From Nitrospirota bacterium (GTDB lineage Bacteria; Nitrospirota; Thermodesulfovibrionia; UBA6902), in contig JACQZF010000036.1 in assembly GCA_016213945.1 (NCBI GenBank), forward strand, positions 1 to 60,356: a stretch of DNA of 60,356 nt, written 5' to 3'. Every line of letters begins with the position of its first letter. Position 1 is the first letter of the stretch. Below are positions 808-26,603 of the stretch, piece by piece. The notes under the pieces are model-generated. The model was given only the letters and a program-made list of their open reading frames with translations. It was not told the DNA's origin and did no database searches. The translations under genes and the position numbers were made by a program.

Positions 808-2883
808 ATGAAAGAAAATGACAATATATCCTCCTTACTTTCTTATTTAGGACCGCATCAAGGCAATTTCCATTTACATCTTTCCATCATCGAACAGCCG
901 GAAAGATCTGTTTACCCGTTCCTGATAATCAATAATTCAGACCCGCTTGCCCGTTTGATCGAGGCACGGGTCGTCAGCGACGCGGACAGCGGGGTAAAGA
1001 AATTATTCCTCCTGGTGCAGCGGGACAAGTATCTTCTGAAAAAAGATGAGACGCTTCCGTTAAACAACAGGGATGTTTTTGACCTCTGGCAAAAGGCGTT
1101 TTCTTTTTATGCCAGGGAGAAGCAGGACAATTCCTTTATACTTCTTTCCGGCCAGCTCGGCGGGAAGGGGGAGCTGTCGCCTCTCTCTTCACTGTTTTAC
1201 TGCAGGACAAAAAAAGTTTATTTCCATCCGCCCTGCCCGAAGTGCGGGCTTCCCTTGCGGCAGTGTGAAGATGATGACCTCCTGGTAACGTCAGGGCTTC
1301 AGCCTTTTTCCGGTTCATTGAAACGCTATCTGTTCTGTGCGTCTTGCGGCCCGTCAGGAAGTTTTTACATTGATGAACTTGAGCAATCTGATTCCCCTGC
1401 CGTTAAGGACCGGCGGGCATTAATAAAAGAATTCGGATTGCTCCGCGAAGCCCAACATAACGCGGCTGCATTTCCCTGCGCTGACTGTCAGCTTTATCCG
1501 GAATGTTACGGAGCAGAAAATAAGGTTGTCTCAAGGATCGTCCCTTTCTCTTTCTACCCTTTTTATATGCTTGCATTTGAGGCCATGTCATTGAGCGGCC
1601 TGGATTTCATATCCCTTATTTCGGGAGCGACTTTTGAAGAGGCTGAGGCTTTGCTTGAGAGCAAAGGTGAATCCGGGCGGATAAATTATCTGAAGGCTGT
1701 CAGACAGAACAGCGCCATGAACACGCCGTTCTTATTTGATCACGACGACAGGTGTTTTTTAGAGGTGCTGTATTTAAAACTTTCTTTCTTAGGCGAGGCG
1801 CTTCAAAGCCTGCAATCCTCAGACGGTCCATTTATACACCCTGATTTCAGGCCAACGATCGACGGGGTTTGGGTTAAGCTTGGTGAGCGAGGCCTGCTTC
1901 CATTCTTCTGGAACTTCAATGTAAAGTTCATGGGCCTCAGCAGCCAGCCCCCGGTTTCACAACAATTTTCGAAATCTCAATCAAATGCGCTTTTCTTCAT
2001 GGGGCTTGTCTGGTTTTATACGCTCTTAACAAACAGAAAGCAAAACATGCCTGAAATTCACGGCACATTGGAAAAACTTCTTTCAGGAGAAACTGCGTCG
2101 CCTGAAAAATTTAAAAGCAATAAAGTCTTCGACCCGTCAAATATCTTCTGGAATCCGGACGGAAAGACAGTAAACAGTAATTGGAAATCCCTCTGGGAAA
2201 AGTCGCTCAATCTTGGCTTCGCCTTATTAAATACAAATAAGGCGTGGGACGGCGAAGGTTTCAAAAAAGAAATGGAAACTCTGAGAAATGAGATAAAGGA
2301 GAATCTGTTTCTGAAAGAGATACCTTATTCCACTCCTGCACTGCCCATCGTCGAGAAAGTTATTCATCCCGTAGAGGAAATAGCTTCACAGCCTGCAAAG
2401 GAAGATGAGGCCGTACACGCGATCCTGATGGGCATTCTCAAGAGATGGCAGCCCGCGGTTGCAGTGAAAAAGGAAGAAGCACAGGACACCGTTATCTTAT
2501 CCACGGCGGACTTAAACGTGAAGACTGCACCGGTAAATGCAGATGAGATAGTTTCAGAAACTGTCATCCTGTCTTCTCAACAAATCCAAAAGGAAATCCC
2601 GCCGGTCAAAGAACCGCCGAATGAGGAGTTGCAGGAGACCATGATCCTCTCATTAAAAGACCTGCAGCAGAAACAGCCTCAGCCGCAGGTGAGGGAAAAG
2701 GACGAAGAAGACATTGAAAAAACAGTTATCATGTCGCTCAAAGGCATGCCGGTCCCTCAGGTAAAAGAACCGGAGAAGCCTGAAGAAGCTCCTAAGAAAA
2801 AGAAAACGGATGAAGATTTCCTGGCTGAAACAATTATCCCCAAGCCGGGAGAAAAGACAAAAGATGGCCCAAAAAAACAATGA
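808..2883 (+). CDS. unknown Cys-rich protein with five TxI repeats, leads the T6SS locus
   Basis: I do not recognise this 691-residue protein. Three cysteine clusters are visible: C143/C146/C153, C177/C180 and C224/C227/C233, suggesting zinc or Fe-S binding. The middle (250-530) looks globular and has no membrane segments. The C-terminal 140 residues are charged, Pro/Lys/Glu-rich and probably disordered, and hold five spaced copies of an acidic-T-x-I-L/M-S motif with Thr at 561, 585, 611, 639 and 675 (the last copy ends P-K). In four of the five, the residue three after Thr is Leu or Met, which resembles ligands of FHA domains (pT-x-x-L/I/D). No strong ribosome site precedes the start. The 3' end overlaps the next gene, which suggests coupled translation and a shared role. 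A T6SS link is inferred from position only. Confidence 0.75.
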   Translation: MKENDNISSLLSYLGPHQGNFHLHLSIIEQPERSVYPFLIINNSDPLARLIEARVVSDADSGVKKLFLLVQRDKYLLKKDETLPLNNRDVFDLWQKAFSFYAREKQDNSFILLSGQLGGKGELSPLSSLFYCRTKKVYFHPPCPKCGLPLRQCEDDDLLVTSGLQPFSGSLKRYLFCASCGPSGSFYIDELEQSDSPAVKDRRALIKEFGLLREAQHNAAAFPCADCQLYPECYGAENKVVSRIVPFSFYPFYMLAFEAMSLSGLDFISLISGATFEEAEALLESKGESGRINYLKAVRQNSAMNTPFLFDHDDRCFLEVLYLKLSFLGEALQSLQSSDGPFIHPDFRPTIDGVWVKLGERGLLPFFWNFNVKFMGLSSQPPVSQQFSKSQSNALFFMGLVWFYTLLTNRKQNMPEIHGTLEKLLSGETASPEKFKSNKVFDPSNIFWNPDGKTVNSNWKSLWEKSLNLGFALLNTNKAWDGEGFKKEMETLRNEIKENLFLKEIPYSTPALPIVEKVIHPVEEIASQPAKEDEAVHAILMGILKRWQPAVAVKKEEAQDTVILSTADLNVKTAPVNADEIVSETVILSSQQIQKEIPPVKEPPNEELQETMILSLKDLQQKQPQPQVREKDEEDIEKTVIMSLKGMPVPQVKEPEKPEEAPKKKKTDEDFLAETIIPKPGEKTKDGPKKQ

Positions 2884-10928: not shown

Positions 10929-11747
10929 ATGGACCCAAAAGAACTTTTAAAGGCAGGCAGACTTACAGAGGCACGCAAGCAGTTAATCGAAGAGGTCAAG
11001 GCTTCTCCAGCGAACGCGGGAAACCGCACACTCCTGTTTCAGGTCCACGCTTTTCTGGGTGAATGGGAAAAAGCGGAACGCCATCTCGAAGTGCTTGTCA
11101 CGCAAGACCCGAACAGGGAGACCGGGGTCCAGGTCTATAAAAATCTGCTTCATGCGGAAAAAGAGCGGCTGGAAGTTTTTAAGAACGACAGGCGTCCCTC
11201 ATTCCTTCCCGAGGTCCCGTCATATCTGGAAATGTATTATCTCGCATGTGAAAAGCTGAAAGAGAAGAAGTTTAATGAAGCGGCTGACCTCTTTGATAAA
11301 GTGAACGATCAGGTCCCCGTCATATCAGGGACAATAGACAGCAAAATTTTTACTGGCTTTAACGACACTGATATTTTCCTGTCCTTCTTTCTTGAAGCGA
11401 TCGTGCATGAGCGGTATATCTGGATGCCGTTTGAATTCATCAGGGAACTTTCAATAACGCCTCCCAAAACACTCTTTGACCTCATCTGGATAACCGCCCG
11501 CATAACTACATGGGAAGGACTTACCATGAGCTGTTATCTGCCCGTGCTTTATCCTGAATCATTCACTCATGATGATGACCGCGTCAAACTCGGCAGGATG
11601 ACAGACTGGGTCTCACTCGGAGGGCCGTTCTCAAGAGGCGCGGGGCAGCATGTGTTTCAGATCGGAGAAGAAGAGGTGAGCATACTTGATATCCGTGAAG
11701 TAGTTTTTAATATGCCGGATACATTGGAGGAACAAAAAAATAATTAA
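10929..11747 (+). CDS. tagJ: T6SS accessory protein TagJ (ImpE family)
   Basis: 272 residues. The N-terminal third is TPR-like (LLKAGRLTEARKQLIEEVKA, then GEWEKAERHLEVL), as in ImpE/HsiE/TagJ, followed by the conserved ImpE block with PFEFIRELSI, LFDLIW and MSCYLPVLYPES. In Pseudomonas aeruginosa TagJ (HsiE1) binds the N terminus of the sheath protein TssB and may assist ClpV-driven sheath recycling. A GAGGA ribosome site precedes the ATG. TagJ is found only in some T6SS subtypes, so it helps classify this locus. Confidence 0.9.
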   Translation: MDPKELLKAGRLTEARKQLIEEVKASPANAGNRTLLFQVHAFLGEWEKAERHLEVLVTQDPNRETGVQVYKNLLHAEKERLEVFKNDRRPSFLPEVPSYLEMYYLACEKLKEKKFNEAADLFDKVNDQVPVISGTIDSKIFTGFNDTDIFLSFFLEAIVHERYIWMPFEFIRELSITPPKTLFDLIWITARITTWEGLTMSCYLPVLYPESFTHDDDRVKLGRMTDWVSLGGPFSRGAGQHVFQIGEEEVSILDIREVVFNMPDTLEEQKNN

Positions 11748-13291: not shown

Positions 13292-13813
13292 ATGGCAAAG
13301 AAAGAAAGTTTACAGCATAAACTCGACAGAGTAAGGGCGCCGAGGGTCCAGATCACCTATGATGTGGAAATAGGCGACTCGATCGAGATGAAGGAGATCC
13401 CTTTCGTAGTAGGCGTTCTTGCCGACCTGTCAGGCAAGCCTGATGACCCGCTTCCAAAACTCAAAGACCGGAAATTCATTGAGATTGACAGGGACAATTT
13501 TGACAAGGTGCTTGAGGGCATGAAGCCGAGGCTCTCTTTCCAGGTTGATAACAAACTGACCGGGGATGACACAAAGATGGGCGTGGAGCTTCGTTTCAAA
13601 TCCATGGATGATTTTCATCCGGAACAGGTCGCAAACCAGGTGGAGCCTCTGCGCAAACTTGTTGAGGCCAGGCGCAGGCTTTCAGACCTTCTCAGTAAAC
13701 TGGACGGCAATGACAAACTCGATGAACTTTTGCAAAAGGTCATTGCCAGCACGGACTCCCTGCAGAAATTAGGCAAGGAAGCCGGCGTGGAAAAAACGGA
13801 AGAAAATAAATAA
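13292..13813 (+). CDS. tssB: T6SS small sheath subunit TssB (VipA)
   Basis: 173 residues, standard length. It shows the family's PRVQITYDVE near the N terminus, FVVGVLADLSGKP, the KFIEIDRDNFDKVL block and a FKSMDDFHPEQVANQV segment, ending in a helical region. It pairs with TssC to build the contractile sheath; its N-terminal helix is the probable site for TagJ and its C-terminal helix shapes the ClpV-recognised groove. A strong AAAGGAGAGG ribosome site suggests high expression. Confidence 0.97.
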   Translation: MAKKESLQHKLDRVRAPRVQITYDVEIGDSIEMKEIPFVVGVLADLSGKPDDPLPKLKDRKFIEIDRDNFDKVLEGMKPRLSFQVDNKLTGDDTKMGVELRFKSMDDFHPEQVANQVEPLRKLVEARRRLSDLLSKLDGNDKLDELLQKVIASTDSLQKLGKEAGVEKTEENK

Positions 13814-13836: not shown

Positions 13837-15327
13837 ATGGCTGAACAAGAAAAACAGGCCCAGGCCGCACAGGGCCAGGAGGTCCAGGAAGAAAAAGGAC
13901 TGTTGGACCAGATCATAGAGCAGGGACGCATGGTCCGCGATGAGAGCCAGAAGGGCTGGGCGCGCGACGTTCTCAGCGAGTTTGTAAAAGAGATCATGCA
14001 GGGGACCATAACGGTCTCCAAAGACACGGAGAAGATGATCAACTCCAGGATCGCCCAGATCGATAAATTGATCTCCTCACAGCTTAATGCAGTTATGCAC
14101 CACCCGGAATTTCAAAAGCTTGAGGCGTCATGGAGGGGCCTTAACTATCTCGTGAACAACTCCGAAACAGGCGAGAAATTAAAGATAAGGATAATGAACG
14201 TTTCCAAGAAAGACCTCCTCAAGGACATGGAAAAGGCGAGCGAGTTTGACCAGTCCACTCTTTTCAAGAAAATATATGAAGAGGAGTTCGGCACCTTCGG
14301 CGGCGCATCCTACGGGGCGCTGATAGGCGATTATGAATTCGGCAATAACCCGCAGGACCTGTCGCTCCTTGAAAAAGTAGCAGGCGTGGCTGCGGCTGCC
14401 CACGCGCCTTTCATCTCCGCAGCGGGGGCGACGCTCTTTAACTGGGACAGCTTTGCGGAGCTTGGCGGCCCGCGCGACCTCGCCAAGATCTTCCAGAGCG
14501 TGGAATACGCCAAGTGGAAATCCTTCCGTGAATCCGAGGATTCAAGATACGTTGCGCTGGCGCTTCCCCACATACTCATGAGGCTTCCCTACGGACAGGA
14601 GAACGTCCCTGTGGAAAATTTCAATTTCGAGGAAAACGTGGACGGCACAGATAACACAAAGTATCTCTGGGGCAACGCGGCATACGCACTCGGCGCAAGG
14701 ATCACGGACGCCTTTGCCAAGTATCACTGGACTGCCGCTATCAGGGGCGTGGAAGGCGGAGGACTTGTGTCAGGACTGCCGGTCCACACATTTAAAACAG
14801 ACGAAGGAGACGTGGCGTTAAAGTGCCCGACTGAAATAGCCATAACGGACAGGCGTGAAAAGGAATTCGCGGACCTCGGTTTTGTCCCCCTTGTTCACTG
14901 CAAGGGAACAGACTACGCGGCCTTCTTCAGCACCCAGACATCAAACAAAGCAAAGGTGTATGACACGGAAGCCGCAAATGCCAATGCGAGGCTTTCATCG
15001 CAGTTGCAGTACATCCTCGCCATATCAAGATTCGCCCATTATATGAAATCAATAATGAGAGACAAGGTCGGCAGTTTCATGACCCGCAAAAACGCCGAGG
15101 ATTTCCTGAACCGCTGGATCGCGAGCTACGTGTTGCTTGACGACGACGCATCACAGGAGGCAAAGGCAAGTCACCCTCTTCGCGAGGCGAGGATCGATGT
15201 AACAGAAATGCCGGGCAAGCCGGGAGCATACAGGGCGGTTGCCTTTTTGAAGCCGCACTATCAATTGGATGAACTGACCGTGTCTCTGAGGCTGGTGGCA
15301 AACCTGCCTCCGCCGGCTAAACAGTAA
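13837..15327 (+). CDS. tssC: T6SS large sheath subunit TssC (VipB)
   Basis: 496 residues, normal length. The N terminus is a charged helix (KQAQAAQGQEVQEEKGLLDQ), followed by the TssC core: LEASWRGLNYLVNNSETGEKL, AHAPFISAA, LPYGQ, FNFEE, LWGNAAYAL. The C-terminal part with ISRFAHYMKSIMRDKVG and the last strands that join neighbouring subunits is complete, unlike in the fusion protein at 22756. A strong ribosome site (AAAGGAGGC) precedes it. Confidence 0.97.
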   Translation: MAEQEKQAQAAQGQEVQEEKGLLDQIIEQGRMVRDESQKGWARDVLSEFVKEIMQGTITVSKDTEKMINSRIAQIDKLISSQLNAVMHHPEFQKLEASWRGLNYLVNNSETGEKLKIRIMNVSKKDLLKDMEKASEFDQSTLFKKIYEEEFGTFGGASYGALIGDYEFGNNPQDLSLLEKVAGVAAAAHAPFISAAGATLFNWDSFAELGGPRDLAKIFQSVEYAKWKSFRESEDSRYVALALPHILMRLPYGQENVPVENFNFEENVDGTDNTKYLWGNAAYALGARITDAFAKYHWTAAIRGVEGGGLVSGLPVHTFKTDEGDVALKCPTEIAITDRREKEFADLGFVPLVHCKGTDYAAFFSTQTSNKAKVYDTEAANANARLSSQLQYILAISRFAHYMKSIMRDKVGSFMTRKNAEDFLNRWIASYVLLDDDASQEAKASHPLREARIDVTEMPGKPGAYRAVAFLKPHYQLDELTVSLRLVANLPPPAKQ

Positions 15328-15370: not shown

Positions 15371-15865
15371 ATGTTTGACGCTTTTTTGAAAATTGAAGGC
15401 GTACCTGGGGAAAGCTCGGACGACAAACACAAAGACTGGATAGAGATACTCTCTTTTCACTGGGGGGTGTCCCAGCCTACCACCGGAGCGAAGAGGAGCG
15501 CCGGTGGCGCATCTTCATCGAGGTCCGACCATCAGGATTTTTCCATTGTCAAGGCGATGGACAAGGCATCACCGAAACTTGCCTTGTTCTGCAGTAATGG
15601 CAATCATGTCCCCGCGGTCCAAATCGAGCTCTGCCGCGCTACCGGAGACAAACAGAAATACATGGAGTACAAAATGACTGATGTTATCGTCAGCGCTGTG
15701 CGTCCCGGCGGGTCCTCTCAGGGCGGAGAGCAGCTCCCGCTTGAAGAGGTGTCTTTTAACTACGGCAAGATCGACCTGACGTATACCGAGACAGACCACA
15801 ACACAGGGAAACCCAAAGGCGACATCAAGGCCCACTGGGACCTTACGACCAACAAGGGCGGTTAA
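15371..15865 (+). CDS. hcp: T6SS tube protein Hcp, copy 1
   Basis: 164 residues of the Hcp1 family: MFDAFLKIEGVPGESSDDKH, a DWIEILSFHWG strand, DFSIVKAMDKASPKL, ELCRATGDKQKYMEYK and EEVSFNYGKIDLTYTE. Hexameric Hcp rings stack into the inner tube that carries effectors. An AAAGGAGGG ribosome site is present. The following gene is a second closely similar copy. No C-terminal effector extension is present. Confidence 0.96.
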   Translation: MFDAFLKIEGVPGESSDDKHKDWIEILSFHWGVSQPTTGAKRSAGGASSSRSDHQDFSIVKAMDKASPKLALFCSNGNHVPAVQIELCRATGDKQKYMEYKMTDVIVSAVRPGGSSQGGEQLPLEEVSFNYGKIDLTYTETDHNTGKPKGDIKAHWDLTTNKGG

Positions 15866-15893: not shown

Positions 15894-16391
15894 ATGGCAT
15901 TTGACGCATTTTTGAAAATTGACGGCGTACCCGGGGAAAGCACCGATGACAAACACAAAGACTGGATAGAGATCCTTTCATATTCTCACGGATTGTCCCA
16001 GCCATCATCAGGCGCAAGAAGCAGCGGCGGAGCTGCTTCTGCTGAAAGGTGTAGTCACCAGGATTTTTCAATTGTTAAGACGCTTGACAAGGCGTCGCCA
16101 AAACTTTTCCTGAATTGCTGCAACGGGGCCCATCTCAAATCAGCTACGATCGAGCTCTGCCGCGCTACAGGAGACAAACAGAAATACATGGAGTATAAGC
16201 TGTCAGACGTGCTTGTAACTTCCGTGCGTCCGGGCGGCTCAGCACAGGGCGGCGAAAACCTCCCCCTTGAGGAGGTGTCTTTCAACTACGGCAAGATCGA
16301 ATGGACCTATACCGTTACAGACCACAAAACAGGCAAGCCCTCTGGAGATGTAAAAGCCAACTGGGACCTTGTCGGAAACAAGGGCGGCTAA
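15894..16391 (+). CDS. hcp: T6SS tube protein Hcp, copy 2
   Basis: 165 residues, collinear with copy 1 over the full length and identical in several blocks such as ELCRATGDKQKYMEYK. Differences are concentrated in the loop after the first strands (SYSHGLSQPSSGARSSGGAA) and in a Cys-containing strand (LNCCNGAH against LFCSNGNH in copy 1). Tandem duplication is the simplest origin. The ribosome site is AAAGGAG, eight bases from the ATG. Confidence 0.96.
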   Translation: MAFDAFLKIDGVPGESTDDKHKDWIEILSYSHGLSQPSSGARSSGGAASAERCSHQDFSIVKTLDKASPKLFLNCCNGAHLKSATIELCRATGDKQKYMEYKLSDVLVTSVRPGGSAQGGENLPLEEVSFNYGKIEWTYTVTDHKTGKPSGDVKANWDLVGNKGG

Positions 16392-16539: not shown

Positions 16540-17013
16540 ATGGCCCAGAACGACAACATTCAGGCATCCGTACTGGACAGGCTCATCGACAATGAGCCTG
16601 GGATCTCACGCGAACCTGTCCAGCACCGGACGCTCAATATTAATCAGATCAAGGCATCGGTTGCCAGGGACATGGAAAATCTGCTGAACACGAGACGCCA
16701 GATAACGCCGGTCCCCGCTGAATTCAGGGAGATCAATAATTCGCTTTTTGTATACGGCCTGCAGGACTTTACCTCAAAGGACCCGAGAAGCCCGGTGATA
16801 AAGCAGCAATTGCGTAACGATATTGAAAAGACCATTGCCCGCTTTGACAGCAGGCTGCGAAATGTTATGGTGCGTATCGAAGCTCCTACCGCAAGCGAAC
16901 GCAATATGAGATTCAGGATAACTGGCCTGCTGGTAATAGAGCCGATAACCGAACCGATCTCCTTTGACACATATTTCGATATCAGCAGGGGAGAGTACGT
17001 GGTGAAAAAATGA
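16540..17013 (+). CDS. tssE: T6SS baseplate wedge protein TssE (gp25-like)
   Basis: 157 residues, typical length. It contains the gp25-like core: SVLDRLIDNEPG at the start, SVARDMENLLNTRR, then VYGLQDFTSKD, IEKTIARFDSRLRNVMVRIE and RFRITGLLVIEP. TssE forms the wedge with TssF and TssG and nucleates sheath assembly. The ribosome site is weak (TTAAAGA) because the gene starts straight after the inverted repeat. Confidence 0.94.
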   Translation: MAQNDNIQASVLDRLIDNEPGISREPVQHRTLNINQIKASVARDMENLLNTRRQITPVPAEFREINNSLFVYGLQDFTSKDPRSPVIKQQLRNDIEKTIARFDSRLRNVMVRIEAPTASERNMRFRITGLLVIEPITEPISFDTYFDISRGEYVVKK

Positions 17014-20069: not shown

Positions 20070-20097
20070 ATAACTAATTATAAAAGGAGACATGCTA

Positions 20098-22737
20098 ATG
20101 GTGAAATCGAACATCAAGTCATTAATCGGCAAGCTGAATGAAACCTGCAGGAAGGCGCTTGAGTCAGCGGCAGGGCTTTGCCTGTCGCAGACGCATTATG
20201 AAGTTGATATAGAGCACTTCCTCATCAAGCTCCTTGAGATGCCGGACACGGACTTGCAGAAGATACTCAGGCATTTTGAAATTAACGAAGCCAGATTAGT
20301 TAAAGACCTGACGGCCGCGATTGAGGATTTCAAGAGGGGCAATGCCAGGACGCCAGCGCTGTCTCCCCGCATTCCCAAAGTGGTGCAGGACGCGTGGCTC
20401 ATCGCATCCATTGACCAGCAGATGCCGGTGGTGCGTTCAAGCCACATCATCCTTGCCTTAATGAGTGTTGATGAAATGGCCCGGATGCTGACGAGCGATT
20501 CAGCCGAATTCAAGAAGATCTCGGCCGAGACAATGGGCCAGAATTTATCAGCTATTGTTTCCGGCTCCAGTGAAGACAGCGAAGCAGCAGCCGCGCCAGC
20601 TATGGGCGCTGTGTCACCGTCAGGCGTTCCAATGAAAGGCGCCAAGTCTCTGGCCCAGTTCACGATCAATCTTACAGACAAGGCGCGCAAGGGCGACATT
20701 GACCCTGTGCTCGGACGTGACTTCGAGATAAGGCAGATGATCGACATATTGATCCGCAGAAGGCAGAACAACCCTATCCTGACAGGCGAGGCAGGCGTTG
20801 GGAAGACTGCGGTGGTTGAAGGTTTCGCGCTGAGGATCGCCCAGGGCGATGTTCCTCCTCCATTAAGGAACGTGGCAGTGCACACGCTCGATCTGGGTTT
20901 GCTGCAGGCCGGGGCTGGAATAAAGGGTGAATTTGAAAACCGTCTTAAATCAATTATCGAAGAGGTAAAAGCGTCCCCGACGCCGATCATTATTTTCATA
21001 GATGAGGCCCACACGCTTATCGGAGCGGGCGGCTCAGCGGGTTCGGGCGATGCAGCGAATCTTTTAAAACCTGCTCTCGCGCGCGGCGAGCTTCGCACTA
21101 TTGCCGCGACCACGTGGGCGGAATACAAAAAGTATTTTGAAAAGGACGCCGCGCTCGCAAGAAGGTTTCAGGTTGTAAAGGTTGAGGAGCCTGACGAGGA
21201 CAAGGCAATGGTCATGATGAGGGCGATAGCGCCTTTCCTTGAAAAACATCACAAGGTCATGATAACCGATGAAGCGCTGAAGGATTCCGTGAGACTTTCC
21301 CACCGCTACATTCCGGCAAGGCAATTGCCTGACAAGTCCGTAAGCGTGCTTGATACCGCTTGCGCGAGGATAGCCATAGGGCTTACTACAAGTCCTTCTT
21401 CGATCGAAGAGGCGACGCGGCGGACCGGAGACATTGAGCGGGAGGTGAAGATACTCGTAAAAGAAGCTCTTATGGGCGCTGACCATTCAATACGCATCGA
21501 AACCCTCTCAAAAGAAAAAGAGGTCATCAAGTCGCGTATGGAAGAACTCAACAAGAAGTGGCAGGCGGAGATGTCTGTCGCAAGCAAGATACTTGAGACA
21601 AGGCAGAAGATGCACGAGTGCTATGAGAAAAATGCGGCAGACCCGTCGCTGAGCGGACTGAAAGGACAGCTTGCGGGGTTTGAAAAGGAAATGAAAGAGG
21701 CGCAGGGCGATGAGCCTCTTGTGCAGATTGACGTGGATTCGCAGACGATCTCAGAGGTAATTTCAGGCTGGACCGGGATTCCCACGGGCAGGATGCAGGC
21801 CGATGAGATCGCGACCGTGCTGAAACTTGAGGAAGTGATCGGGCAGAGGATCATAGGGCAGGACCACGCTCTGAATGCATTGGCGCAGATGATACAGATC
21901 GCGCACGCGGGAATTGAAGACCCCTCCAAGCCGAAGGCGGTCTTCCTTTTCGTCGGGCCAAGCGGCGTGGGAAAGACAGAAACCGCGCTGGCGCTCTCCG
22001 AACTGCTTTACGGCGGCGAACAGAACCTTATCACGATCAACATGTCCGAGTACCAGGAGGCCCACACAGTTTCAAGCCTGAAAGGCTCGCCTCCGGGATA
22101 TGTCGGCTATGGCGAGGGCGGGGTGTTGACCGAGGCGGTGCGCAAACGCCCGTACAGCGTTGTGCTCCTTGACGAAGTGGAAAAGGCCCACCCTGACGTG
22201 CTGGAGCTTTTTTATCAGGTCTTTGACAAGGGCACTCTCGAAGACGGCGAAGGACGGAAGATAGATTTCAAAAATACCCTGATCATTCTTACTTCCAATT
22301 TATGCACTGACACCATCATGAAGGTCTGCGCTGACGAGGAGACTATGCCGGACCCTTCAGCCCTGACCGGAATGCTGCGTCCTGATTTGGTAAAGCATTT
22401 CAAACCAGCTTTTATCGGACGCCTTAAGGTAGTCCCTTATTATCCGATCAAGGACAAGAACATGCGCCTCATTGTCAAACTCAAACTTAATAAAGTTGCA
22501 AAACGGATGATGGAAAACAGGAACGTTGCTTTCCATTACGGTGAGGATATTGTCGATTCCATTGCAAGCCGCTGCACCGAAGTCGAGAGCGGCGCAAGAA
22601 ATGTGGACAATATCCTGACCAACACCCTTATGCCCGAGATGTCGAAGGAACTTCTTTCAAGGATGGCTGCCGGAGAGCAGATAAAAGAGGTGAAGGTGTC
22701 ATTGAGCGGCGAGGGGTTTGCATTTAACATCCAGTAA
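20098..22737 (+). CDS. clpV: T6SS sheath-recycling ATPase TssH/ClpV
   Basis: 879 residues from this start. An N-terminal ClpN domain (1-150) with LCLSQTHYEVDIEHFL is followed by AAA+ domain 1 (Walker A GEAGVGKTAV at about 231, Walker B IIIFIDEAHTLIGAGG), a middle domain, and AAA+ domain 2 (Walker A GPSGVGKTE at about 621, LLDEVEKAHPDV). ClpV disassembles contracted sheaths. The ribosome site AGGAG is only two bases from an upstream ATG at 20092 but eight from the ATG at 20098, so the latter is preferred. Confidence 0.96.
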   Translation: MVKSNIKSLIGKLNETCRKALESAAGLCLSQTHYEVDIEHFLIKLLEMPDTDLQKILRHFEINEARLVKDLTAAIEDFKRGNARTPALSPRIPKVVQDAWLIASIDQQMPVVRSSHIILALMSVDEMARMLTSDSAEFKKISAETMGQNLSAIVSGSSEDSEAAAAPAMGAVSPSGVPMKGAKSLAQFTINLTDKARKGDIDPVLGRDFEIRQMIDILIRRRQNNPILTGEAGVGKTAVVEGFALRIAQGDVPPPLRNVAVHTLDLGLLQAGAGIKGEFENRLKSIIEEVKASPTPIIIFIDEAHTLIGAGGSAGSGDAANLLKPALARGELRTIAATTWAEYKKYFEKDAALARRFQVVKVEEPDEDKAMVMMRAIAPFLEKHHKVMITDEALKDSVRLSHRYIPARQLPDKSVSVLDTACARIAIGLTTSPSSIEEATRRTGDIEREVKILVKEALMGADHSIRIETLSKEKEVIKSRMEELNKKWQAEMSVASKILETRQKMHECYEKNAADPSLSGLKGQLAGFEKEMKEAQGDEPLVQIDVDSQTISEVISGWTGIPTGRMQADEIATVLKLEEVIGQRIIGQDHALNALAQMIQIAHAGIEDPSKPKAVFLFVGPSGVGKTETALALSELLYGGEQNLITINMSEYQEAHTVSSLKGSPPGYVGYGEGGVLTEAVRKRPYSVVLLDEVEKAHPDVLELFYQVFDKGTLEDGEGRKIDFKNTLIILTSNLCTDTIMKVCADEETMPDPSALTGMLRPDLVKHFKPAFIGRLKVVPYYPIKDKNMRLIVKLKLNKVAKRMMENRNVAFHYGEDIVDSIASRCTEVESGARNVDNILTNTLMPEMSKELLSRMAAGEQIKEVKVSLSGEGFAFNIQ

Positions 22738-22755
22738 ACGGGAGGAAGGTGTGAA

Positions 22756-24321
22756 ATGCCTGAGCCTATTTCTTTTGGAAAGATTGACGTCAGTTTGACT
22801 TCAACAATGGAAGAGATAAGAGGGACGGTTGAATCCGATACACCCTTCAGGATCGCCATCCTCGGTGATTTCAGCGGGCGCGTCAACAGGAAAATTATAA
22901 AGACAGGCCCCGCGCTTGCAAACCGCCGTTTTCTTCCCGTGGACAGGGACAATATCGACGACGTGCTGAAAAAACTCGGCGCGGAGATCAGTCTTCAAAT
23001 TTTAGGCAAGGATTCTCCCCCGGTCATTGTCAAATTTTCAAACATGGATGATTTTCATCCTGACCGCCTTTTTGAAAACCTTGATGTCTTTCAGGCATTA
23101 AAGGAAACGCGCCAGGGACTGAAAGATCCCGCAGCGTTTGCGCTGCTGGCAAAAGCATTTAAGCAGGAAGAAACGTCCGGGAAGGAAAAACAAGATACCC
23201 CCCTTGAGTCCCCCCTTGCTAAGGGGGAAATTGAAGAGGGGTCAACTGGCGGACTTCTGGACCAAATTCTTGAAGAGGCAGGGGAACAGAAGCCGGGGGC
23301 CCAACCGACCCAGGGAATGTCTGAGATGGATAGTTTCCTGCGGGAGATCGTCAAACCACATCTTGTCCCCGACATCGAAAAAGAGCAGGCCGGTATGATA
23401 GCCGCTGTTGATGCCGCCGCAGGTGAACTGATGAATATGATTCTGCATCATCCCGATTTTCAGGCGATGGAAGCAGCGTGGCGCGCGCTTCATTTTCTCA
23501 TATCAAGGGTCGACACAGACACCAGCCTGAAGATCTATTTATTCGATATATCGAAAGAAGAACTGGCCGCTGATCTATTATCAGAGGCGGAAGACCTCCG
23601 TTCCTCGGCGATGTACAAACTCCTTGTCGAGCAGACAGTCGAGATCTTCGGCGGCGGGCCGTGGGCGGTCATTGCAGGCAGTTATACTTTTGATCGCACC
23701 ATTGAAGATGCAGAGCTGCTCGGGCGGATGGCAAAGATTGCAGGGCGGGCTGGCGCTCCATTCATTTCTGCCGCGCACCCTCATCTGGCAGGCTGTGAAT
23801 CATTGGCTGAAACTCCCCGGCCTGATGACTGGAAATGGTCTGCTGATGGAAAAAGCGAAGAGGCGTGGCAGGCATTGAGAAAATTACCCGAGGCGTCATA
23901 TGCCGGCCTCGCGCTTCCGGGATTTTTACTCCGCCTTCCATACGGCGTTGAGGCTGAGCCGGCTGAGAGTTTTAATTTTGAAGAAATGTCCGGCAAACCG
24001 GACCACGGACATTACCTGTGGGGCAATCCGTCCTTTGCCTGTCTATGTCTCCTGGCCCAGTCATTCAGCGATTACGGCTGGGAATTTCAACCGGGCGTTG
24101 AGCAGAATATAGACGGGCTCCCCCTGCATATTTATAAAGAAGACGGCGAGGCAAAGATCAAGCCCTGCGCTGAAGTATTATTCACTGAACATGCGGTCGA
24201 TGTCATTTTAGAAAAAGGCATCATGCCGCTCATATCATTTAAGGACCAGGACATCATCAGGCTTGCGCGCTTCCAGTCGATCGCCGATCCCCTGGCAGGG
24301 CTGACAGGCAGATGGGAGTAA
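22756..24321 (+). CDS. TssB-TssC fusion, sheath-like protein truncated at its C-terminus
   Basis: 521 residues. Residues 1-135 resemble TssB: FRIAILGDFSGRVNRK, FLPVDRDNIDDVLKKL and FSNMDDFHPDRLFENL align with TssB at 13292. Residues about 190-521 resemble TssC: FQAMEAAWRALHFLIS, AGAPFISAA, LPGFLLRLPYGV, FNFEE and LWGNPSFA. The TssC part stops at LARFQSI, just where intact TssC continues into FAHYMKSIMRDKVG and the inter-subunit strands. The linker (about 147-162) is encoded by a repeat element. A good GGAGG ribosome site precedes it. It follows clpV by 18 bases and ends the T6SS locus. Role unknown; a sheath cap, terminator or adaptor are possible. Confidence 0.85.
   Translation: MPEPISFGKIDVSLTSTMEEIRGTVESDTPFRIAILGDFSGRVNRKIIKTGPALANRRFLPVDRDNIDDVLKKLGAEISLQILGKDSPPVIVKFSNMDDFHPDRLFENLDVFQALKETRQGLKDPAAFALLAKAFKQEETSGKEKQDTPLESPLAKGEIEEGSTGGLLDQILEEAGEQKPGAQPTQGMSEMDSFLREIVKPHLVPDIEKEQAGMIAAVDAAAGELMNMILHHPDFQAMEAAWRALHFLISRVDTDTSLKIYLFDISKEELAADLLSEAEDLRSSAMYKLLVEQTVEIFGGGPWAVIAGSYTFDRTIEDAELLGRMAKIAGRAGAPFISAAHPHLAGCESLAETPRPDDWKWSADGKSEEAWQALRKLPEASYAGLALPGFLLRLPYGVEAEPAESFNFEEMSGKPDHGHYLWGNPSFACLCLLAQSFSDYGWEFQPGVEQNIDGLPLHIYKEDGEAKIKPCAEVLFTEHAVDVILEKGIMPLISFKDQDIIRLARFQSIADPLAGLTGRWE
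23196..23241. repeat. CCCCCTT/AAGGGGG repeat element inside a coding sequence
   Basis: CCCCCCTTGAG, then CCCCCCTTGCTAAGGGGG, then GAAGAGGGG: a palindromic element of a type normally intergenic. It lies in frame in the linker of the TssB-TssC fusion and encodes roughly DTPLESPLAKGEIEEGSTG. Confidence 0.75.
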
Positions 24322-25202: not shown

Positions 25203-26013
25203 TTATTGATTGAACAGCCCTGTGCTCAAATACCTGTCGCCGCGGTCCGGGAAGATGACCACAACCTTTTTATCTCTTCCTAATTTCTTTGCGACTTTTA
25301 ACGCCGCCCAAGCGGCAGCGCCTGATGATATGCCGGCGAGGACACCTTCCTTCTTTGCCAGCAGCCGTGACATTGATGCTGCGTCGTCGTCTGTTACAGG
25401 AATCACCTCATCATAGATTTTCGTATTCAGTACGCCGGGATAAAAACCCGCGCCTATGCCTGCAATTTTGTGCGGACCGGGATTGCCGCCGGACAGCACA
25501 GGCGAGCCTGCCGGTTCAACCGCCGATGATCTCAACTGCCGTGGTCCTTCTGTGGATATCAGGATTGGCAGGATTTTCAAATTGCATAGGCATAAAATAA
25601 TCGGGATTTCTTTTCAATATCAGCTCCGCCTCTTCCACAGCGCCCATCATCCCTTTGGCGGCAGGTGTGAGGACCAGCTCAGCCCCGAATGCCTGGAACA
25701 TCAGCCTTCTCTCCTGAGACATGCTTTCAGACATGGTCAGGATTATTTTGTATCCCTTCACCGCGGCTATCAAGGCGAGCCCTATTCCGGTATTGCCGCT
25801 TGTGGGCTCGATGATGGTGCCGCCGGGCTTCAACTTGTCCTCTTTCTCCGCAGCTTCTATCATCGAAAGCGCTATCCTGTCTTTGACGGAACCGCCCGGA
25901 TTAAAGCCCTCAAGTTTCGCCCATATCTCCGCGTAATCCGCATCCGGTATGTGGTTCAGTCTTACAAGCGGGGTATTGCCGACAAGACTTAATATGTTTG
26001 TATGAGGTTTCAT
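25203..26013 (-). pseudogene. cysK: cysteine synthase cysK, disrupted by internal deletion and frameshift
   Basis: The first frame (26013 to about 25516) encodes a normal CysK N terminus: [15 protein letters not shown], the PLP lysine in GGSVKDRIA, and [11 protein letters not shown], up to HRRTTAVEI, then reaches a stop. The C-terminal half continues in another frame from [13 protein letters not shown] through AGISSGAA to [12 protein letters not shown]. The stretch normally between them, about 35-40 codons containing the GTGGT phosphate-binding loop for PLP, is missing. So even with the frame restored the enzyme should be inactive. The start overlaps the fmdE-like stop (ATGA). An assembly error is possible. 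Confidence 0.85.
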
Positions 26014-26603
26014 TTTTTGTAATACGCCTTTCCCGCACAGGCCTTGCAATATATCCTGCCGTCCAGATTTATCTCCCTGTTGTCCTGCACATATTCTCCG
26101 CATTTTTCGCACTGCACCCGCTTCAACGGCCTTCCGGGCATGTCCTCCGGGGGAATTTCAACGGACACTTCTTCCCATTTAAAAAGCTCCTCATCCGGCA
26201 TCACCTTGTAAGCGGCGGTCTGGCGTTCGTACTTGTCCTCGATCTCAGTGCAATAGTTTTTCGCTGCCGCCTTTGATTCCTCTTTCGCAAGTATTCTTAT
26301 CGCCTTCCCCGTGTTCAGGTTTACAAAGGTCGCGGCCATCTTTCCGTAATCAAGGAGCTTCATTGTCCTTTTGCCGGGGCTGCATCCCGTGACAGACTGG
26401 ATCGCATCAGTGGCGCACCTGTCTATTTCAACAAACACCATGACCTTCTTCCTGTCTTTGCCCTTAGGGTCTTCAATGTCAACCTTTTCAAGTCCTAATA
26501 TGCTCATCCTTACGCCTAACACCTGTCCGGGACAGAGATGCCCGTGAATTTTTACGGACTCATCAAGCAGGCTTTCAAAATTAAAATTATCTTTCCCGGT
26601 CAT
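26010..26603 (-). CDS. FmdE-family protein with C-terminal zinc finger
   Basis: 197 residues. The N-terminal FmdE domain has the [15 protein letters not shown] signature (about residue 20), [24 protein letters not shown] and [13 protein letters not shown]-terminal four-Cys zinc finger (CEKCGEYV ... YCKACAG) follows. FmdE relatives occur beside formylmethanofuran dehydrogenase in methanogens, but in bacteria they are widespread, often with metal-related or molybdoenzyme context, and have no settled role. The stop overlaps the cysK start by four bases, so the two were probably an operon. Confidence 0.88.

Follow-up and report, generated by a model that had tools for sequence, protein, structure and literature searches.

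The T6SS locus of a Nitrospirota bacterium ends with a gene that joins a TssB-like and a TssC-like part in one chain of 521 residues without the VipB_2 domain, giving a mimic of the sheath protomer that has relatives in at least seven bacterial phyla. The gene occupies positions 22756–24321 on the plus strand of the window, by which we mean the whole 60,356-nucleotide stretch of DNA that was analysed. It starts with ATG, is preceded by a candidate ribosome site (the Shine-Dalgarno-like GGGAGGAAGG, 22740–22749), and begins 18 bp after the stop of its immediate 5′ neighbor clpV (tssH, 20092–22737, plus strand). As the first-pass annotation had stated, it is the last gene of the locus, with nothing of the T6SS after it, and it stands beside separate, complete tssB and tssC genes. 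On the same strand, the canonical tssB was identified by Pfam at 13292–13813 and the complete tssC, with both VipB_2 and an N-terminal LLDQII motif, at 13837–15327; only two genes of VipB type are present in the genome. Also on the plus strand are separate genes for TssE, the gp25-like sheath initiator (16540–17013), and for TagJ (ImpE; 10929–11747), an accessory known to link TssB and ClpV in other systems. The remaining locus is that of a normal T6SS, encoding TssJ, K, L, M, TagF, TagJ, TssA, two Hcp, TssE, F, G and ClpV. The two hcp genes lie side by side (15371–15865 and 15894–16391), and a 691-aa ORF with no Pfam match (808–2883, plus strand) opens the locus. At 25203–26112 on the minus strand, a cysteine-synthase-like frame is split into two overlapping pieces in different frames; it is frameshifted, either really or through sequencing error.

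Pfam searches place the TssB-like part of the fusion at residues 24–124 (22825–23127; PF05591 positions 21–122 of 155, E 2.6e-14) and the TssC-like part at residues 214–508 (23395–24279; PF05943 VipB positions 3–299 of 301, E 7.8e-72), so that both parts do reside in one chain. Neither PF18945 (VipB_2) nor PF04965, the gpW/gp25-like acceptor fold, matches the fusion or its family, whereas the separate TssC of the locus matches PF18945 at E 1.7e-45. Where VipB_2 would start, the chain has the family's own conserved end, LxGxW (LTGRWE, residues 516–521, 24301–24318). At the other terminus, an arm of residues 7–18 (22774–22809), consisting of FG and a variable strand, occupies the place of the TssB b1 handshake strand, whose motif RAPRVQIxYDVE was not recognizable in the fusion core by sequence comparison; in the cores of the roseobacter group the stretch at this position is shortened. 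The linker between the two parts is of low confidence in the structure prediction (disordered) and freely variable, except for an 11-residue predicted helix at residues 165–175 (GGLLDQILEEA, 23248–23280) that resembles the ClpV-docking LLDEII motif of TssC. The scores against the NCBIfam models for TssC (TIGR03355, 253.8 bits) and TssB (TIGR03358, 49.8 bits) are both under the respective equivalog cut-offs of 271.5 and 97.25.

AlphaFold, run on the protein alone with an alignment of 66 sequences, predicted a confident sheath body (pLDDT 88, pTM 0.85) that includes the domain 3 helices, in agreement with the sheath fold expected from the first-pass annotation. Residues 205–521 match Pseudomonas aeruginosa TssC1 with a VIA Z of 33.6 (314 residues, 2.4 Å), the match ending at TssC1 residue 400, and residues 26–521 match sheath proteins that are a single chain in PVC, AFP, pyocin and phages, with VIA Z of ~15–17. 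Phosphotriesterase rows in the Foldseek output were low-probability noise and were set aside. In T6SS sheaths of known structure, TssC b11 and b12 form the acceptor side of the handshake sheet, with TssC b13 and TssB b1 as donors (PMC5807055), and from each sheath subunit two donated arms extend to the adjoining ring on the baseplate side (PMC5813253). The chain of the fusion stops before TssC b11, b12 and b13, confirming that its TssC part ends at the ring-linking strands, and in the predicted model the fusion reproduces the body of the TssB-TssC protomer in one chain, with sheath domains 2 and 3 but without domain 1. Having no acceptor strands, no TssC donor arm and no recognizable TssB b1, it offers no acceptor and no clear donor, and to judge from its sequence it probably cannot polymerize by the sheath handshake.

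These features bear directly on what such a protein might do. The idea, put forward earlier, of a subunit able to attach to the end of a sheath while allowing no further extension is left unsupported when there is no acceptor and no clear donor, and a role in seeding is contradicted, since seeding needs the acceptor that TssE has and that the fusion lacks. Of the cap that had also been suggested, a handshake-based form is unlikely, whereas a cap held by non-handshake contacts is possible; as a distal-end cap or terminator, the mimic would pack on the last ring by domain 2/3 contacts and, as it offers no acceptor, growth would stop. The absence of the VipB_2 acceptor domain from all members and the prediction of the domain 3 helices would suit such a cap, as would the direction of the arms, which point to the baseplate-side ring so that an acceptor-less subunit fits only the distal end (PMC5813253). 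However, the TssC donor arm is absent, the TssB donor strand is unrecognizable and its stretch is shortened in the roseobacter cores, and a near-identical T6SS (G010) does without the fusion, and we consider a distal-end cap unlikely.

One scan for relatives matched 456 loci, and 80 of these were retained. The closest relatives that carry a name indicate Nitrospirota. Relatives at 54–69% identity belong to Nitrospirota, Planctomycetota (Brocadia) and Thermodesulfobacteriota/Myxococcota; those further removed come from Acidobacteriota, Verrucomicrobiota and Pseudomonadota, many of them in roseobacters. Each of the 66 aligned members, which represent seven phyla, has matches to VipA and VipB, and none has one to VipB_2. 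Outside the alphaproteobacterial group nearly all chains stop within a few residues of the shared LxGxW end, the G and W of which are almost invariant. The family is under purifying selection: its two pairs of lowest dS, which are the least saturated, have dN/dS of ~0.22 and ~0.11. In a maximum-likelihood tree in which several long branches were flagged, the TssC parts of 31 fusions fall on one side of a branch with support of 100/100, and the 38 TssC proteins and the Rhizobium ImpD that were also included all lie outside the fusion clade. The single fully supported clade, together with the selection and the conservation, indicates an old, selected paralogue, and the family likely has one origin. 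A pseudogene, a chance fusion or an assembly artefact was ruled out by the common architecture and end point of the 66 members, the LxGxW end and the dN/dS values. That the protein might instead be an ordinary co-polymerizing sheath isoform, or a decayed duplicate, is hardly credible: its sheath fold and the Z of 33.6 to TssC1 would fit an ordinary subunit, but the anatomy contradicts this in that the handshake strands are missing, and the family's own conserved C-terminus, its separate clade and the dN/dS of 0.11–0.22 in the two least saturated pairs argue against both. The supposition that the family is unnamed was borne out: no name for it turned up in the libraries searched or in the open-licence literature, where we looked for any TssB-TssC fusion or paralogue of the sheath that had been named; a description elsewhere is possible. 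The annotated plasmid-borne relatives examined carry the plain label "contractile sheath large subunit."

The coexistence of the fusion with complete tssB and tssC extends to other genomes, since a full VipB_2-bearing TssC is also encoded in 41 of the 42 fusion-bearing genomes searched and a separate TssB in all 27 searched for it. One roseobacter-containing family was sampled at 149 genomes: a VipB gene is present in 35, and in 15 of the 35 another VipB match lies within a long, fusion-type frame. Among Nitrospirota, the fusion occurs in about 7 of 34 T6SS genomes (including one frame-broken copy and one at a contig end), and the close T6SS of G010, in the same family, has the same gene order with no fusion after clpV. 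Its absence from many T6SS genomes, that of G010 included, marks the fusion as accessory rather than core, and in the G010 system it is dispensable, whatever its role. Large stop-to-stop frames in relatives (G010, G030 and G036) raised the possibility of a true sheath encoded as a single gene, but the G010 and G036 loci have separate tssB and tssC. A specific link to TagJ was likewise rejected, as TagJ is present in 6 of 8 fusion-bearing Nitrospirota but also in 8 of 28 that lack the fusion. Of the 54 informative loci, 48 have clpV as the T6SS gene closest upstream of the fusion. One Nitrospirota fusion (L138, genome G108) lies ~22 kb from the T6SS cluster, with no other T6SS gene matched around it.

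The conserved linker helix may provide a further connection to ClpV. LLDEII has been described as the ClpV-binding motif (PMC4239648), and residues 165–175 form a helix of this type, as would be expected of a ClpV-docking sheath factor, that is conserved in the family apart from a few members in which the motif is weak or deleted (L039, L052). The fusion profile places this helix on the TssC N-terminal helix, and its type agrees with that of the system's own TssC: GSLLDQ(I/V)(L/V)EE occurs beside TssC proteins with LLDQII or LLDQIV, and a second type, LSDFQxLIGDT, beside those with S(D/E)FxxLLxKEF. ClpV binding, an option in the first-pass annotation, would be a good option. Nevertheless, ClpV binding can do without the TssC N terminus in the H1-type systems of P. 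aeruginosa (PMC4239648). The helix could also have been inherited from TssC and retained for reasons of folding or turnover, and the clpV-fusion gene order may be merely ancestral. TagJ and an LLDEII-type TssC motif have been said to be mutually exclusive except in Solibacter (PMC4239648); the locus studied here has both TagJ (10929–11747) and LLDQII in its TssC (13837–15327), and TagJ and the TssC motif also occur together in three Acidobacteriota loci (L046, L048 and L051).

In 29 roseobacter-type proteins (L105, L096 and L077 among them), a canonical TssB precedes the fusion core. This extra TssB shares 68–87% identity with one free TssB taken as the reference, retains the b1 strand motif and the canonical TssB N terminus, and is joined to the core by an acidic linker of 79–993 aa, often with many DDILAGLE or LDDLLAGLD repeats (39 in L105 by pattern count); the proteins usually end in an LDDLLAGF...LAALL tail. 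Genome searches found a separate tssB besides in the genomes with such proteins. AlphaFold of one whole roseobacter protein (836 aa) is weak overall (pLDDT 63) and says little on the placement of the extra TssB. For the gene FPZ52_RS14585 (L020, position 13459), the annotated start seems to be too far downstream, as reading further upstream in that frame gives an entire TssB. The natural fusion to a canonical TssB suggests, at the level of sequence, that the family acts on the sheath. This also speaks against a decoy or buffer for ClpV, by which a soluble mimic would occupy ClpV and shield extended or assembling sheaths from premature disassembly: while the ClpV-type helix motif and the probable inability to polymerize would agree with that role, tethering to TssB suggests that the mimic works at the sheath and not as a free cytosolic protein, and we regard a decoy as quite unlikely.

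We therefore put forward, tentatively, that the fusion is a sheath-associated, non-polymerizing mimic that docks ClpV at the sheath and serves as a dedicated T6SS accessory protein. The fusion would associate with the sheath, the roseobacter versions by being covalently tethered to a canonical TssB, its conserved LLDEII-type helix would dock the N domain of ClpV, and ClpV would in this way be recruited or positioned at the sheath for recycling, a role akin to the one proposed for TagJ but performed by a protein made from a sheath protomer. With greater reserve, we suggest that this handshake-less mimic, leashed in roseobacters to a real TssB by hundreds of acidic residues with many short LDDLL-like motifs, collects ClpV at the sheath or in some other way sets the timing or the limit of sheath growth, and would thus constitute an undescribed T6SS control module. 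Use of the sheath fold for a different contact, as a baseplate, spike or effector-loading adaptor, would be consistent with the vgrG gene that follows the fusion in L034, L036 and L043 as well as in each of the four roseobacter-type plasmid loci examined. Yet T6SS operons often end in vgrG/PAAR genes anyway, and no effector-adaptor domain was found in the 66 members, making an adaptor distinctly improbable.

Comparison with known systems sets the family apart. With TssC/VipB (TIGR03355, PF05943 and PF18945) and TssB/VipA (TIGR03358, PF05591) it shares the body fold, the ClpV-type N-terminal helix and the locus, but it differs from them in being one chain and in lacking VipB_2, the C-terminal donor arm, a recognizable TssB b1, and the N-terminal or C-terminal helices. 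In pyocin, PVC, AFP and phages, the single-chain sheath proteins form the sheath body from one chain, as the fusion does; unlike the fusion, they keep the C-terminal handshake domain and arms. TssE and T4 gp25 consist of the handshake acceptor domain, which the fusion lacks, and are in that sense the complementary module. TagJ/HsiE1 (ImpE) would share the proposed role of an accessory linking ClpV to the sheath, but has an unrelated TPR/ImpE fold and is a separate gene in the studied locus. The distal-end proteins TagA/TssA resemble the fusion only in the role that a cap would have; they are based on ImpA_N, which matched none of the 66 members, and have no sequence relation to it. ImpD/TssC40 (Agrobacterium Atu4340) is, like the fusion, a second TssC-like gene beside a full tssC, and was scored as needed for Hcp secretion and not required for TssB stability (PMC3702570). 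The Rhizobium ImpD examined (L021, 14130–15518), however, keeps VipB_2 and lacks the TssB part and the N-terminal arm; this truncation, opposite to that of the fusion, and the position of ImpD outside the fusion clade ruled out membership in ImpD/TssC40. Rhizobium ImpD could be an initiator-side counterpart of the fusion.

The list of T6SS components is treated as nearly closed. A conserved, probably non-polymerizing mimic that occurs in at least seven phyla, is encoded beside the clpV gene and is in some cases tethered to TssB would offer a new way into the control of sheath length, of capping or of recycling, and as cultured marine roseobacters carry the fusion, its role is directly testable.
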